64,000 nucleotides of DNA, from NCBI GenBank assembly GCA_035772405.1, contig JAYKKM010000374.1, positions 928,501 through 992,500 on the forward strand. The letters are read 5' to 3'. Source of the DNA: Chrysogorgia sp. JL179-B06 (Eukaryota > Cnidaria > Anthozoa > Scleralcyonacea > Chrysogorgiidae). A program made the position numbers and the translations under genes. A model generated the notes under the pieces. The model had not been told where the DNA came from. It was given only the letters and a program-made list of their open reading frames with translations, and did not search any database. Numbering within the stretch: position 1 is the stretch's first letter; each line of letters opens with the position of its first letter. Positions 19,341 to 60,684 of this stretch are shown here, one piece after another.

Positions 19341-19504
19341 TATATACTGCTGTAGTGAATGTGGGAGAGCATGGAGTAGACAGACAATACATGGACGATC
19401 GTCAAGCTCGTATCCTCAGAAAAATGATTTTGAGTCCCGGACAGGATTCGAACCTGTAACCTTCTGATTGGCGGTGAGACGCTCTAACCATGGGGCCACC
19501 GAAT
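19341..19504 (-). mobile_element. tRNA-derived SINE, copy A
   Basis: On the minus strand a tRNA-like head (GGTTAGAGCGTCTCACCGCC, perfect B box GGTTCGAATCC) is followed by a roughly 85-base body containing GAGGATACGAGCTTGACGAT and CTCCCACATTCACTACAGCA. The anticodon-stem pairing is imperfect and the universal T33 is absent, so it is not a working tRNA. The same family is at 40092-40262 and 54610-54774. Confidence 0.8.
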
Positions 19505-21831: not shown

Positions 21832-24727
21832 GTAAGTATCTTCTGATAATCTAATTATTTTGTTAAAACATCGCTTGCTGTATATACACGCTATTTTTGT
21901 AGGCACAGCAAACTTTCATAAGCGAAGCAGCCCTATTTGGAAAGGGCAACGCCGAATATCGATTTTTAGGTCGTATTCAATGTTTTCTCATGAGCCATAT
22001 AAAATAAGACGAATTGACAAAGCGTTAACATATTACTGTGACAAGAATATTGGTACACCAGGGCGCGAAATAACGGACGGACAATGTGTAGCCGGCGGTT
22101 TTTTGGGTTGGGGTGCGTCGGCCAAATTGAGGCGATGTCCGGTCAAACTCTCGCCTTGCCGCGGTCATTTTGACCGTCACATGACATTAAACAAATTGCG
22201 AGCGGTTGCAACTGTCAAAACCAACATTGTTATGTTATGTTTCCTTTACTATATCAATCAAATGAGGCGATAGCCCGCACGCAATGAACTTGTTTGAATT
22301 TATTGACGCAACCGACGTATTTCATTAATTAACAAGCGTCGCATAATTCGGAAACTTTCCAGAGAGGGTCGACAAAGAACATCTACTTTATAGAATAAAA
22401 TGAATTTAGACTGCTAATTAAATAAATTAAAGCTGAAAAGTATCGGCATTTCATTTGTGTTGACACAATACCAAGGCTGAGCGTACCGTTTTCATCTCGC
22501 ACCACAGCTTAGAAATGATTTTCAAATTGCTCCAGATAATTATAGGTGACGGTTTCGCACATTTCAGTCTTGTATCACGTCTAAACACAACGGCTAACAT
22601 ATAAGCTAAAGCGCAATACATTTTACGTCAAGGAGTTTACCGATGGCGATTACGGAATTAATGCTTTTTTCAGGCTGTACAATTTGTCCAGTCATAAAAG
22701 CGGCATGTCTGAACTAAAATTGACTTGGCCCGCGGTAGGCTTGACCGCGGCGACCAGTAGCCTGCGTGCAGACCCCACCCGATAGGCGACCAGCTGCTTT
22801 GACGAAATTAACTGCAGAAACAGTTCATACTCCCTACTTGTAAGACAGAGCAGTGATACGAAGAAAAAAATTGATCATATGAACGACTACTTCAGAAAAA
22901 GAACGAGTCTCTGGCTTTTGTGCTTTTATAGTACGTCAAATATTCGCTTCATTTCGCCCTCAATGACTTCATTTGTGTTTAGTTTAAGTTTAATTTAGTT
23001 TAATAGGATTTGTCACAAATTTACATTACAATAATTGCTGCCGCAGGCAGCTGGGTTTCTCCAAAGTTCACTCAACCCAGTCTTTCGTGCCGATCTATGT
23101 GTTGTCGACATTTCGATCATTTAAGATGTCGTAATTCCGGGGGGGGCACCGGGGGGAGTGGGAGAAAAATATTGAATTGCGTGCGCATGTACTATTCTAT
23201 GCGGGGAGCGAAGATAAGGCCCTGGGAACGAGGTTGCTATTCTATGTGCTAAAACCAGGTAAGTATGCATGGATTTATTTCTTTCTGCTATTATATCCAT
23301 CAAGGCGATGAACTGTTTAGCGTTCATTCTAGAGGCAAGCAATGTGCTTTTATGAGTTGATATTTCGATAACAAATGCAATCGCTGTATGTTTCTCATTT
23401 GTATCGTGCTGAATCGACGGCTTCAGTACTTTACTAAGCTGGAGTAATGAAGGATTATGTAAATGCATTCGACGCATGTGGACCAATAAATGGTGAATGA
23501 AGATTGGTTTATAAACATAAAATGATACTGTAACGAATTATGAGAATACAGCGTCTCAATAATTGAACCTCGTTCGTTAGTTCGATTTGAAATATGACCG
23601 CTAGATAAGTCAGGCGCAAATATTACAAACGTGAAGTTCGATTAGGCAAACGGCGTGTCGCTTGAATGGAAAAATTATAGTCGCGAGAGTTGCTCGTTTC
23701 AAGTGAATGTTGTAGTCGAATTAGATGTATGGCGCTCAAATGGTCACATTGAATTTTGACAATCCACTGCTCCTGTGTCATTCGCGAGGCAGCATTTCAC
23801 TTCTGATATGAAGAACTCCTAGTAGTAATGCATAAGCGACAGGAGAAGAAACAGGATAAAATCACAATTGATATCATCTCCTTGCATGCAGATAAAACTC
23901 TCTTATATCTATCTAATGTATACTACAAATTAAAAGTATAGAAATTATCTAATACTATAGATTATGCAGTGGAGAATATGTTAAAAGTTTTTCATTGTAC
24001 ATAGAAGAAAGTTGCCTCCTAAAAGACACTCTGATTACAAGTTTTTAGCTTGTGTGGGAGATTGTTCCATAATTTCACTGATCTAGGAAAAAATTAAATT
24101 AAAAAAAATTAAATTAAAAAGTTAATTTCGAGTTAACCTCAAGTTGACTTCGAGTTACTGCACAAACTCATAACCCAGCGGCACGGTGCAATCTTTACGT
24201 GCATGAAAGTAGACAGCTATATGGAGTAATGAATGCTATGTTCGTGAAACTTGTTTCTCCACCAATCAATGCATCTGTTAAAAGGCTATTCGAAATTTTG
24301 ACCAATCAGAATGACTGAACCAATGGTCCAAATCAGTCGGGAAATACAAAGAAGTTAGGCAAACCAATCAATGCTCGTAATAAAAGGCATTTTACGAAAT
24401 GAACAAATCACAAACACGGATACAAACCTTAACGTTCAAATCAGTCGAGATAAAAACCCGCAGAATGCAACAAAAAAATCCAATATTACCCAACCTTTTA
24501 CCGCCAAAAATTTGCCTTACCCAACCCCAGCCATAAATAATAAACGCTGCCTAAGAAATAAAACATCTTCATGTAGGAAATAAAATAAAAACGTTAAGGC
24601 CATGGGAATGCGGTGTATTGCCAAGCCGTTTGTGGTTATCGTTACTAAACCTAAGATGCGAAGGTACTTTCATGTCTGAAACCAAATGGTTATAGAGCTA
24701 CTGTATTGAACTGACGGGTATACATGT

Positions 24728-24965
24728 ACAGGTTTGTCAACATCGTTGTTCCTCAAGGAAAGAAGATGTTCAGCAAACCTGTGTGAAAGGAGGCGTCCTG
24801 CAGCTTCACTGATTTGGATTTTAGGGTTTAGTATCGCAAGAAATGCAAGAAATGATGTTGGTGGACGCGTGCATGAAGAAGTATGACGGATAGTGTGGTC
24901 AGATATATAGGGGCAGTAATGAAATAATGACTGTGGTATAGGATTGAAGAAAGGGCATGTGTAGC
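24728..24965 (-). pseudogene. Degenerate GIY-YIG endonuclease remnant, copy A
   Basis: Homologous by sequence to the clearer fragment at 41311-41628. Minus-strand pieces include RFAEHLLSLRNND. It is too decayed to read through. Its presence upstream of exon 1 in all three copies shows that the insertion predates the duplications. Confidence 0.5.
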
Positions 24966-25296
24966 AGCGGGAACGTCCGCAAATGTTTCTCTTGTTTACT
25001 TCAAGTTTTATCGTTTACATGCATATAACTAATGCTGGAGAAAAATAGGCCCTTTTGTTACCAGACTTAAAAAATAAGGTTTTAGCGAGTAAGCGCGTAC
25101 TTTCATAAACGTCTTGTATCAATTGCAATTTTCGATAAAGGTTTACAACACTGATCTGTGAAACATAAAGACAGCTTTATATATATTATAACGATCGAAA
25201 ACGATCTATATATAAGCCCAACATACCGTTAATCCGTCTCTGTAACTAAATATTAATCTTTTCTATTGTATTCTAGAGTAAAATTCAAGAGTGATC

Positions 25297-36547
<11,251 letters not shown>

Positions 36548-37843: not shown

Positions 37844-37888
<45 letters not shown>
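37844..37888. repeat. (TA)n tract
   Basis: Pure TA run, about 160 bases before the canonical hammerhead. Confidence 0.95.
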
Positions 37889-37890
<2 letters not shown>

Positions 37891-38048
37891 CGTTCTATTG
37901 TCAGTCCTTCTCAGTCAGACTCGCATGAGGAATCACTGAGTCGGTCAAATGACGCAATATGTTTGAGTAATTGTCTATTAGAGCAGTGTGGTATATCCCA
38001 CATCCCGTCTTCAAGACTGTGATGAATATATATATACCTTTGGATGTG

Positions 38049-38124
38049 CTGAGCTATAGGTTTCACCGCGCTGACGAGCCCCAATGAGGGCGAAACAGCT
38101 GTCCGCGGTTGCCAAATAGCTCAG
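38049..38124 (+). ncRNA. Canonical type I hammerhead ribozyme
   Basis: The outer stem I CUGAGCUA/UAGCUCAG (8 bp) and inner stem I CCGCG/CGCGG are separated by an internal loop. Next come core CUGACGA, stem II GCCC-CAAUGA-GGGC, core GAAA, a short stem III C-AGCU-G closed by A-U, and cleavage after GUC at 38103. All invariant core bases are present. The internal loop opposite loop II fits the tertiary contact of fast natural hammerheads. The palindromic ACAGCUGU also permits a dimer. Probably carried by a small retroelement, which I cannot delimit. Confidence 0.88.
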
Positions 38125-38233
38125 GCACTGCCTATAAACTTTTGGTAGTCAAATAACCAAACCATTACCCGCACAGCCTTGGAAGCGATTTCAGTTGTCA
38201 ATGTTTATATGAATTAGGTATCAACCCCTTTGA

Positions 38234-38699
38234 AGTGCCTATCCGGGGTTTGGAAATTTTACATATTTGTGATCTTTGGATTCTCTTGAGAAAAATTGTA
38301 AAATATCTTGTCGTGCGAAAATTTCATCTTCATATCTTTTACGCCTGCTAATGTCATTTACTATTCACAGGAAATCGTCAAAGCAGGGACACGCAAAAAC
38401 ATTGCACATTGATTCAGCAGCGAAATACAATGAAAGTTTGGGAATTGAGCGAATTTTGTCTAAACAGGTGTATTTAAAGTAGTCAGAGGCAAACTTTCTT
38501 TGTATTTCACTGTTGAATTAGTGTGCAATGACTTCGAGTGTCGCTGCTTTGACGTCATTTCCTGTGAATAGTAAATCAACTTTAGCAGGGAAAAAAGTCA
38601 TGAAGATGATATTTTCAAACGATAAGATATATTACATTTCTTCTTGGTAGAACACAAAGATTACGAATATGTAAAAACCCCAAACCCCGGATAGTAACT
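38234..38699. mobile_element. TTAA MITE family 8 (AGTGCCTATCCGGGG ends)
   Basis: The arms ATCCGGGGTTTGG and CCAAACCCCGGAT, with longer imperfect pairing inward, and TTAA after the right end. A fragment with related arms lies at about 46560-46795. Confidence 0.75.
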
Positions 38700-39509
38700 T
38701 TAATCGATTTTTCAGACACCGTGTGATGCCTTATTAATTTATAATGAGAGAAAGCCTAAAGTGCCATCCATATACGGTATTATAACTAAATGTTTGTAAT
38801 TCAGCTTATTTTTTTCTTATTTAGACGAAAATCATTAGAAATGGTATTAATTTAGATCTCTTTCATATATCACGTCGTTCTTGAGATATTTAGACTTGTG
38901 TGATATACAAATGAAGTAGCCTATGACGTCAGATGTTTCTACATTTTTAGAAAATCAAGAAATTAGAAATAGGAATTCTATCCCAGGATCGAAAATCGCG
39001 CGAAACTCTGGAATTTCAAGATGGCGATCTATAACATTATAGCGAATATATGTTTCTTTCAGGGATTTCTGCGCATGTACACTTCAACATGTGCCTTAAA
39101 GTGATAATTTGGCGAAGAATAAACATAAAGAAAAGGAGAAAAGTATTGGTATAGCAACGATAATCGATGCGATCGCAAGTAAACAAGCATTTAATTTAAC
39201 TTTTATTTTATAACGTCGTCGACAAAGAGCTATTTATATTGAACAATATGACGTCGGCGCAATTCCTGTCTCTATAGCTGCAAATTGTCGTCTATAAATG
39301 TTAAAAGCATGCATGTGTTGTTCGTTTCAGTCATCTAGGTCGTATTTTGGCATCGTCTTCGTGTACAGTACACAATGGACACAGACTCATAGACACATCA
39401 AGTTATTTTCTTCAAGATTCAGAAGCTTTACAAGAACAAAAACCCCAACCATAACCCAAATAAAAACTGTAGTGTCCGGATTATATATTCCATTTTAATT
39501 ATATATAGA

Positions 39510-40091: not shown

Positions 40092-40262
40092 TGAGTCTCG
40101 GTGGCTCAATGGTTAGAGCGTCTCACCGTTAATTAGAAGGTTACAGGTTCGATTCCTGTCCGTGACTCAGAATCATTTTTCTGAGGATATGAACTTGAGG
40201 ATCGTCCATGTATCGTCTGTCTACTCCAAGCTCTCCCACATTCACTACAGCAGTGTGTATAT
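40092..40262 (+). mobile_element. tRNA-derived SINE, copy B, with target duplication
   Basis: The head carries an A box (TGGCTCAATGG), a GTT triplet at the anticodon position and a perfect B box (GGTTCGATTCC), followed by a body of about 95 bases. It is flanked by ATAGCAAA on both sides. Copies A and C have a single GCACAGCAAAC at the matching place, so the insertion is specific to B. Confidence 0.85.
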
Positions 40263-41310: not shown

Positions 41311-41628
41311 TTATTCAGCTAAAGGCTGAAAAAATAGCCTTACGTAAAATGCATTGCACTTCATGTTAGCCGTTGCGTTTACACGTGATATATAAGACTG
41401 AAAATGTGCGAAACCGTTGTTCCTCACGGAACGAAGATGTTCAGCAAACCTGTCTGAAAGGCGGAGTCCAGCTTCACCGATGCAGATTTCAGAGCATTTG
41501 GCGCAAGAAATGCAATAAATCATGATGTTGGTGGACGTGCGTGAAAAAGTATGACGGATTGTGTGGTAGAGTTTGGGGGCAGTGATAGATTGAAGAAAGG
41601 GCATGTGTAGCAGCGGGAATGGCCACAA
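41311..41628 (-). pseudogene. GIY-YIG endonuclease remnant (Penelope type)
   Basis: The minus strand reads FSRTSTNIMIYCISCAKCSE, ICIGEAGLRLSDRFAEHLRS, VRNNG. A CxxC pair just before the (Y/C)IGE....L..R..EH core is the usual linker and N-terminal part of the Penelope GIY-YIG domain. It is the best preserved of three copies (others at 24728 and 60122). Confidence 0.7.
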
Positions 41629-41731
41629 GAAAATCTTCCAAAATTTTCTCTAGTTCACTTCGAGTTTTACCGTTTACCTATAACTAAATAATCTTTTCTA
41701 TTGTATTTTAGAATCAAAGTCAAGAGTGATC

Positions 41732-45039: not shown

Positions 45040-45568
45040 GTAGTCCGAAGGTCCACTAGTCCGAAGGTATATTAGTCCGAAGGTCTATTAGTCCGAAGGT
45101 CTATTAGTCCGAAGGTCTATTAGTCCGAAGGTCTATTAGTCCGAAGGTCTATTAGTCCGAAGGTCTATTAGTCCGAAGGTCTATTAGTCCGAAGGTCTAT
45201 TAGTCCGAAGGTCTATTAGTCCGAAGGTCTATTAGTCCGAAGGTCTATTAGTCCGAAGGTCTATTAGTCCGAAGGTCTATTAGTCCGAAGGTCTATTAGT
45301 CCGAAGGTCTATTAGTCCGAAGGTCTATTAGTCCGAAGGTCTATTAGTCCGAAGGTCTATTAGTCCGAAGGTCTATTAGTCCGAAGGTCTATTAGTCCGA
45401 AGGTCTATTAGTCCGAAGGTCTATTAGTCCGAAGGTCTATTAGTCCGAAGGTCTATTAGTCCGAAGGTCTATTAGTCCGAAGGTCTATTAGTCCGAAGGT
45501 CTATTAGTCCGAAGGTCTATTAGTATGAAGGTCTATTAGTCCGAAGGTCTATTAGTCCGAAGGTCCAC
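45040..45568. repeat. 16-bp minisatellite, about 33 units
   Basis: CTATTAGTCCGAAGGT repeats almost without change. The first units have CACTAG or ATATTAG variants, and a single interior unit reads AGTATGAAGG. There are no spacers, so it is not a CRISPR array. Confidence 0.97.
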
Positions 45569-46241: not shown

Positions 46242-46347
46242 ACCTTTGGACTAGTGAACTTTCGGACTGGTGAACCTTCGGACTAGTGAACCTTCGGACT
46301 AGTGAACCTTCGGACTAGTGAACCTTCGGACTAGTGAACCTTCGGAC
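46242..46347. repeat. Inverted 16-bp minisatellite, about 6 units
   Basis: GGACTAGTGAACCTTC repeats six times; it is the reverse complement of the 45040 unit with two changes. Confidence 0.95.
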
Positions 46348-48443: not shown

Positions 48444-48636
48444 ATATACTTCATGGTAACAATACATATAGTCTCCCACCGTATTTTACGGTTATTGTTA
48501 TGGTTAGGATTAGAGTTACGGTTAGGGTTAGGGGTATGGTTAGGGTTAGGATTAGGGTTAGGATTTGGGTTACGGTTGGGGTTAGGGGTATAAAAAACAG
48601 ATGGAAACCCGGTCCAGTGTTACCATGAAGTATATA
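48444..48636. mobile_element. MITE with telomere-like core
   Basis: TIRs ATATACTTCATGGTAAC and GTTACCATGAAGTATAT flank about 100 bases of degenerate GGTTAGGGTTA-type repeats (48495-48590). Confidence 0.8.
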
Positions 48637-59700: not shown

Positions 59701-60121
59701 GAAATACAAAGAAGTTAGGCAAACCAATCAATGCTCGTAATAAAAGGCATTTTACGAAATGAACAAATCACAAACACGGATACAAACCTTAACGTTCAAA
59801 TCAGTCGAGATAAAAACCCGCAGAATGCAACAAAAAAATCCAATATTACCCAACCTTTTACCGCCAAAAATTTGCCTTACCCAACCCCAGCCATAAATAA
59901 TAAACGCTGCCTAAGAAATAAAACATCTTCATGTAGGAAATAAAATAAAAACGTTAAGGCCATGGGAATGCGGTGTATTGCCAAGTTATTTAAAAATGAG
60001 ACGCTTCTCTTGCCGTTTGTGGTTATCGTTACTAAACCTAAGATGCGAAGGTACAGACTTTCATGTCTGAAACCAAATGGTTATAGAGCTATACTGTATT
60101 GAACTGACGGGTATACAGGTT

Positions 60122-60358
60122 TGTCAACATCGTTGTTCCTCAAGGAAAGAAGATGTTCAGCAAACCTGTGTGAAAGGAGGCGTCCTGCAGCTTCACCGAT
60201 TTGGATTTTAGGGTTTAGTATCGCAAGAAATGCAAGAAATGATGTTGGTGGACGCGTGCATGAAGAAGTATGACGGATAGTGTGGTCAGATATATAGGGG
60301 CAGTAATGAAATAATGACTGTGGTATAGGATTGAAGAAAGGGTATGTGTAGCAGCGGG
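60122..60358 (-). pseudogene. Degenerate GIY-YIG remnant, copy C
   Basis: Almost identical to 24728-24965. Confidence 0.5.
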
Positions 60359-60684
60359 AACGTCCGCAAATGTTTCTCTAGTTTACTTCAAGTTTTATCG
60401 TTTACATGCATATAACTAATGCTGGAGAAAAATAGGCCCTTTTGTTACCAGACTATAAAAAATAAGGTTTTAGCGAGTAAGCGCGTACTTTCATAAACGT
60501 CTTGTATCGATTGCAATTTTCGATAAAGGTTTACAACACTGATCTGTGAAACATAAAGACAGCTTTATATATATTATAACGATCGAAAACGATCTATATA
60601 TAAGCCCAACATACCGTTAATCCGTCTCTGTAACTAAATATTAATCTTTTCTATTGTATTCTAGAGTAAAATTCAAGAGTGATC

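Follow-up and report, generated by a model that had tools for sequence, protein, structure and literature searches.

A hammerhead ribozyme on the forward strand of the window, as we call the whole 64,000-nucleotide stretch of Chrysogorgia sp. JL179-B06 DNA analysed here, is best read as part of a small non-autonomous retrozyme whose RNA may be copied in trans by the machinery of Penelope-like elements (PLEs) into (TA)n tracts, a reading to which we assign a probability of roughly 70%. The ribozyme, its repeat unit, the genomic copies, their TA junctions, two sites at which copies end, the inverted arrangement of some pieces and the matching pattern of a PLE were all read from the sequence. What had been an "orphan" ribozyme becomes a copy of a defined family, and the end pattern offers a concrete, testable link between retrozymes and PLEs, with two places in the RNA named as the expected starts.

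The ribozyme and its host element

The motif is confirmed as a real type I hammerhead, with cleavage predicted from its sequence. Scanning the whole window with cmscan returned a match to RF00163 (Hammerhead_1) at 38065-38109 (+), with a score of 40.1 bits (gathering score 34; E 1.1e-6) and an alignment that spans the full model, 1-45, uncut. It is the only hammerhead among three window matches above the Rfam gathering score; those below it (microRNA, pestivirus and others) were taken as chance or AT-repeat matches. An earlier note, made from the letters alone, had described a plus-strand type I hammerhead, which this covariance search upholds, and every part that it named was found: core, stem II, palindromic stem III, inner and outer stem I (Table 1). 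Its predicted cut, after 38103, falls at the GUC triplet as aligned by Rfam, and its extent of 38049-38124 gave the right location but fell slightly short on both sides, since the fold reaches 38046-38128. Because stem III is palindromic, the monomer would probably form two pairs and an AGCU loop there. The internal loop AGGUUUC/UGCCAA and the loop CAAUGA are both present, and the fold of 38042-38131 (-40 kcal/mol, z -4.1) was equalled by none of 200 dinucleotide shuffles. A type III hammerhead, by which plant LTR retrozymes are recognised, was rejected, the type I model having matched over its full length.

Table 1. Retrozyme copy of the window, its junction and its parts (positions in the window).
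Feature	Position	Strand	Basis or remark
(AT)n tract, 5' junction, presumed integration target	37844..37888	.	TRF, 22.5 copies of AT; abuts element start
Retrozyme copy, family A	37890..38131	+	BLAST against the 245-nt unit of L007; sequence shared with other genomic copies stops at 38131
3'-end site 1, TTTGAGTAATT, unit 111	37962..37972	+	other copies join (TA)n here; 5 family A ends
Possible hairpin UGUGG-UAUAU-CCCACA, between the two end sites	37987..38002	+	92% of cells paired, no two-sided change
Hairpin GUCUUCAAGAC; AUCUUUAAGAU in family B	38007..38017	+	two-sided change; alignment columns 35-47
3'-end site 2, GAATATATATATACC, unit ~178	38024..38038	+	6 family A ends
Hammerhead ribozyme, type I, including outer stem I	38046..38128	+	Rfam, fold, covariation
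Outer stem I extension, GUGC/GCAC	38046-38049 / 38125-38128	+	predicted fold
Outer stem I, UGAGCUAU with AUAGCUCA	38050-38057 / 38116-38123	+	
Inner stem I, ACCGCG with CGCGGU	38065-38070 / 38104-38109	+	parts located in window sequence
Hammerhead core CUGACGA	38071-38077	+	
Stem II GCCC/GGGC, 4 bp, loop CAAUGA	within 38078-38091	+	
GAA of hammerhead core	38092-38094	+	
Stem III ACAG/CUGU, palindrome	38095-38102	+	
Predicted self-cleavage site, after C38103	38103..38104	+	GUC triplet position in Rfam alignment

The earlier concern that conserved copies might be missing elsewhere proved unfounded: a query of 38000-38200 matched at least 57 stretches of the 781-Mb genome (522 contigs), the window's own included and some in tandem, with the best 40 of 365 candidates scored. 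A genome search with RF00163 placed 73 of 74 scored candidates (the best 74 of 109009) above the cut-off for type I hammerheads. Places from the first search were fetched as L001-L040 and 30 of the 73 matches from the second as L041-L070; as L051, L052, L053, L058, L059, L063 and L064 repeat earlier places, the 70 loci amount to 63 places, a sample that is not random, all copies having been selected for their resemblance to the part of the unit that holds the ribozyme. BLAST pieces almost wholly of T and A were left out before counting, as was L071 from the locus grouping.

The unit of family A, 245 nt long with GC 0.47, was defined from two copies in tandem in L007. Family B (GC 0.43), to which the best-scoring RF00163 genome matches belong, has a 243-nt unit found in tandem in L037, and its matched pieces are about 69-93% like family A. 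Folded as circles of 243-245 nt, the L007 unit, the L037 unit and the window copy gave z of -3.7, -4.0 and -2.2, respectively (60 shuffles each). A type I hammerhead in a repeat within 170-400 nt, dimeric at L007 and L037, with GC below 50% and no coding capacity, is what characterises metazoan non-LTR retrozymes, and the host of the window ribozyme, with its non-coding unit of 242-245 nt, is almost certainly one of them. The multicopy family bears out the suggestion in the earlier note of a retrozyme-like element, present in the window as a single unit with one ribozyme.

As far as the sections of PMC7229834 (Cervera and de la Pena 2020) covered here go, animal retrozyme units measure ~170-400 nt, those of corals (Acropora) 220-240 bp, and have circular RNA; they share with ours the type I hammerhead, the small and (partly) tandem units, the low GC, the multicopy state and an anthozoan host. 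They differ in that these sections describe target-site duplications and tandem units, and neither a (TA)n target nor two 3'-end sites nor head-to-head pieces. On the flanks of the copies fetched here, (TA)n would mask any target-site duplication. Plant LTR retrozymes are likewise non-autonomous and hammerhead-bearing, with a circular RNA intermediate, but have type III hammerheads in their LTRs, circles of 600-800 nt and Gypsy-type machinery (PMC7229834 and PMC7761336, in the parts covered). A PLE as the host element itself was rejected: without a reading frame for reverse transcriptase (RT) and GIY-YIG, the unit is not a PLE and could at most be copied like one.

The window copy is one exact lap of 242 nt, from unit position 29 to 245 and then from 1 to 28 (counting from the cleavage site). 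It has just one ribozyme, and no stop-to-stop frame of at least 90 aa overlaps 37890-38131. Its duplicate L004, 33 kb away and outside the window, has the same 5' flank and the same (AT)n junction, though it runs further and keeps an additional partial unit and a (TA)n end, both absent from the window copy. A length of about one lap (235-255 nt, unit order intact) was noticed post hoc in six locus groups (L001, L012, L021, L041, L045 and L057). With one ribozyme and its 3' part lost, the window copy is probably a dead product; it could perhaps still cut RNA, yet would presumably be unable to release a unit alone.

Covariation, set against shuffles, gives a mixed picture. Of 23 segments from the two families, 21 were aligned (L016 and L018 were omitted for being near-copies of L012); in this alignment, standard pairs fill 94.9% of the cells at the proposed pairs and 27-45% when the pairing is slid. 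Paired cells, cells with two-sided change and the covariation score were better than in 500 of 500 shuffles; by contrast, 59 of the 500 had at least as many pairs with two-sided change, and additional pair types numbered 12, against 16.9 in the shuffled alignments. Two-sided change affects six pairs, five in stem I and one in hairpin 2 outside the ribozyme, and as five of the six are single A-to-B differences common to many rows, they stand for few events. At columns 35-47, AU is found in 12 rows, GC in eight and another combination in one (21 rows). For the possible hairpin between the end sites RNAalifold favours a different pairing.

The sixth pair, A38052-U38121 in outer stem I, is private to the window copy and sets it apart from its near duplicate L004; the 11 other family A rows picked up by a strict pattern have G-C. 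Domestication, with the ribozyme serving the host near the fibrinogen gene, which the earlier note had also entertained, would suit this two-sided change that keeps the pair, as well as the intact core, but is very improbable for a multicopy sequence that has a duplicate, is flanked by TA on its 5' side in the same (TA)n-type junction as other copies, and lacks the 3' part still present in L004; no tie to the fibrinogen gene was found.

Where the copies end

Taking the first member of each locus group (70 loci, 63 places), 26 of 44 groups have a TA run of at least 14 at one end or at both, and 18 have it at neither. The grouping merged too much where loci have neighbouring repeats in common (L007 with L033, L015 with L027). 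The control value is 3.8% of 50-mers from the same loci, or about 7-8% for two chances.

Considering ends joined directly to (TA)n, with duplicates removed, 27 of 30 sense-3' ends fall on two homologous positions of the unit that are separated by 65-67 nt. Family A has five at u111 (a set that includes the end of L007, extending into TA as far as u118), six at u178 and three at u54-56, the last of which (L025, L028 and L034, alike in structure) fit neither site; family B has eight at u107-109 and eight at u174. TA-joined sense-5' ends are scattered (nine after deduplication; A: 29, 94, 105, 187; B: 19, 28, 58, 84, 107), none of the nine being at the ribozyme cleavage site. That copies continue through the cleavage place fits a template that is circular, or multimeric and uncut, though the argument is weak, since they were chosen by that very region.

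An inverted piece is found on the 5' side in L003, L005, L015, L027, L033, L036, L043 and others. Wherever such a copy has both outer ends joined to TA (L003, L005, L033, L027 and L036; n = 5), one end falls at each site. L027 and L036, which lie on one contig at a distance of 68 kb and are nearly the same in structure, may be one duplicated insertion, in which case the family B counts would be one lower per site and the inverted cases four.

Spread at the DNA level would have a satellite-like repeat moved by recombination, its (TA)n produced by slippage from the TA tract of the unit and the two sites acting as microhomology break points. Site 2 is indeed a TA tract, site 1 in most family B copies ends in ATAT or TTAT, and whole-locus duplication is real (L001/L004; L012/L013/L014/L016/L018); we nonetheless hold this unlikely, as TATAT at u132 (A) or u134 (B), the UAUAU of the possible hairpin, serves as an end in 0 of 30 cases, site 1 of family A (GAGTAATT) is hardly TA, and clustered 3' ends with scattered 5' ends call for a polarity.

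A Penelope-like element and the proposed mode of copying

In L002 and L006 (and L008, a near-copy of L006) the retrozyme sits in the (TA)n that follows a PLE, presumably of the Neptune clade, with open frames upstream of a hammerhead-like motif (CTGATGAG..GAAA by our reading). Searches with its frames returned 2831 homologues in one case and 1106 in another, and RT motifs such as YRDDG are common to the homologues. The model of one homologue, P0006 (mean pLDDT 77), had telomerase RT first in a PDB fold search (E 1.1e-7, TM-score ~0.3), with other RTs ranking close behind. For the second frame, a GIY-YIG match was obtained in five of 26 homologues (best E 2.4e-5), which we chose from the 120 listed and which include P0301, already labelled GIY-YIG. 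Pfam returned nothing significant for the two PLE frames and six homologues, the query endonuclease frame included, nor did a sequence search of the PDB give a match; the I-TevI match of P0241, a homologue of the query endonuclease frame (model pLDDT 67), was non-significant (E 0.96, rank 2). It is by the RT motifs, the telomerase RT fold match and the GIY-YIG matches that we identify the element as a PLE, canonical PLEs being defined by a telomerase-like RT with GIY-YIG (PMC11167929).

This PLE is recently active: its 3' end has at least 47 genome matches, 12 of them full-length at 99-100% (best 40 of 1539 scored). Fetching 20 of the 47 (L072-L091) and adding L002, with L006 and L008 dropped as the same places as L072 and L073, gave 28 raw TA-joined ends: 19 at q631/632, eight at q571/575 and one at q441 (15, four and one after deduplication). 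The two sites, 57 nt apart, account for 27/28 raw and 19/20 deduplicated ends, some of those at q57x (L082, L086, L091 minus) coming from copies only 67-81% like the query. Head-to-head pieces setting a q575 end against a q631/632 end occur in L078, L080, L088 and L091. The PLE and the retrozyme thus have their target in common, each has two end sites (separated by 57 nt in the PLE and by 65-67 nt in the retrozyme), and both occur as head-to-head copies, in a comparison with one PLE of the same genome and with PLE as the only element type contrasted.

The purified anole PLE (Poseidon) cuts AT-rich DNA, extends both target strands and uses two adjacent internal starts (PMC11167929). AT-rich target, two RT starts, extension of both strands, partial tandems and a hammerhead are thus shared with the retrozyme; the difference is that Poseidon carries its hammerheads in pseudo-LTRs along with an RT-endonuclease gene, which the retrozyme lacks. 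PLE ribozymes are described as minimal in the covered parts of PMC7229834 and PMC7761336, whereas the one here has a long outer stem I. In rotifers, Penelope copies may have an inverted pseudo-LTR next to them, and a preference for AT-rich sequence is cited as well (PMC3846280, portions covered).

PLEs have been put forward in print for retrozyme mobilisation, as a strong candidate (PMC7229834) and, in a 2020 review, as likely candidates (PMC7761336), the grounds stated in the parts covered being hammerheads in both, tandem copies and co-occurrence. Our end pattern joins the anole PLE biochemistry to this retrozyme literature. Two-site ends of retrozymes were not met with among the titles and abstract openings of open-licence papers that were surveyed in part, and are absent from PMC7229834, PMC7761336, PMC11167929 and PMC3846280 as covered here; the support added here to the printed hypothesis is the two-site, both-strand end pattern. 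LINEs too are named as candidates in a covered part of PMC7229834, and microsatellite-targeting non-LTR elements exist (PMC4640811, in part), so that a LINE-type retrotransposon with an APE or REL endonuclease might have favoured (TA)n by chance. Such a mover is doubtful, given that two discrete internal starts together with head-to-head pieces match both the PLE of this genome and the anole PLE (PMC11167929).

PLE-type copying through two fixed sites is, judging from these ends, probable. Following the published model, a locus with at least two ribozymes would be transcribed, the ribozymes would cut the transcript to unit RNAs and a host RNA ligase would close these into circles. A PLE RT-endonuclease would then open a (TA)n tract, and the TA-ended DNA would prime reverse transcription of the retrozyme RNA at either of two fixed internal places, units 107-111 and units 174-178. 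At times both strands of the target would act as primers. The resulting insertion would span roughly one to two laps and at some loci include an inverted piece placed head to head. Transcription, cleavage, circles and copying by this PLE class are steps that we infer. Whereas the anole starts are not homologous to the cut DNA (PMC11167929), the sites here carry some UA-rich sequence, so that microhomology may contribute. Also speaking against the PLE reading are the 18 of 44 groups that lack a TA run, the three family A ends at u54-56 and the absence of TTGAGCACTCT, a motif of PLE tails, from the A and B units. We lean, with less assurance, towards the wider proposal that PLE proteins copy animal retrozymes from circular or multimeric RNA with two fixed starts, one per strand of the cut (TA)n. 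If true, retrozymes would stand in the same relation to PLEs as SINEs do to LINEs, and the ends seen in the genome would preserve a fossil record of priming from both strands at two sites of a non-coding ribozyme RNA.

Other hammerhead families were seen along the way. Family C, the third, has a 284-nt unit (L038:2803-3086) and loci in L007, L032, L037, L038, L074 and L082; of the six ribozymes matched by a pattern for this family, five are followed by TA repeats after the same 12-14 nt, the sixth being a tandem junction. Hammerhead-like cores recognised by pattern are D (L036/L051, L037/L063), E (L003, L027, L055, L065) and F (L009, L022, L031, L061); since E and F adjoin GIY-YIG-looking frames, they are probably other PLE families. 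The motif TTGAGCACTCT, common to several PLE-like tails and to family C and possibly an RT recognition site, occurs at 57 places in 12 context clusters, including window positions 33266-33276, 33350-33360 and 33518-33528 (-), with GCTC 11-24 nt upstream in 9/12 clusters and TA repeats 39-60 nt downstream in 5/12. Though frequent in PLE tails here, it is absent from the unit sequences of families A and B. A hairpin preceding the motif found no support (stem of at least 4 in 8/12 clusters against 50% of controls).

Neighbouring features of the window

Ten of the 63 window frames of at least 90 aa were searched against Pfam, and only Fic and Fibrinogen_C exceeded the cut-off. For the Fic protein, the nearest of the named matches among the 120 listed are Nematostella (63%), Oculina and Acropora (62%) and Exaiptasia (61%), followed by acorn worms (60%), in agreement with an anthozoan host; matches without a name reach 89%.

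About 100 bp downstream of the retrozyme lies a MITE-like foldback element (38230-38703) with 125-nt arms that are 78% complementary and with inner inverted repeats. Two tRNA-like sequences score above the Rfam cut-off, at 40095-40167 (+, 59.6 bits) and 19438-19501 (-, 33 bits), and are perhaps tRNA-derived repeats. Two arrays of 16-bp repeats, 45041-45565 and 46242-46347, stand ~680 bp apart and are largely reverse complements of each other (TAGTCCGAAGGTCTAT / ACCTTCGGACTAGTGA), and a degenerate internal TTAGGG array, telomere-like, occupies 48486-48587. Pieces of PLE family E, all on the minus strand, were located at 31618-31854, 33663-33890, 24625-24982, 41417-41637 and 59938-60369; as the first two overlap AT arrays, some of the window's AT arrays appear to be PLE tails.
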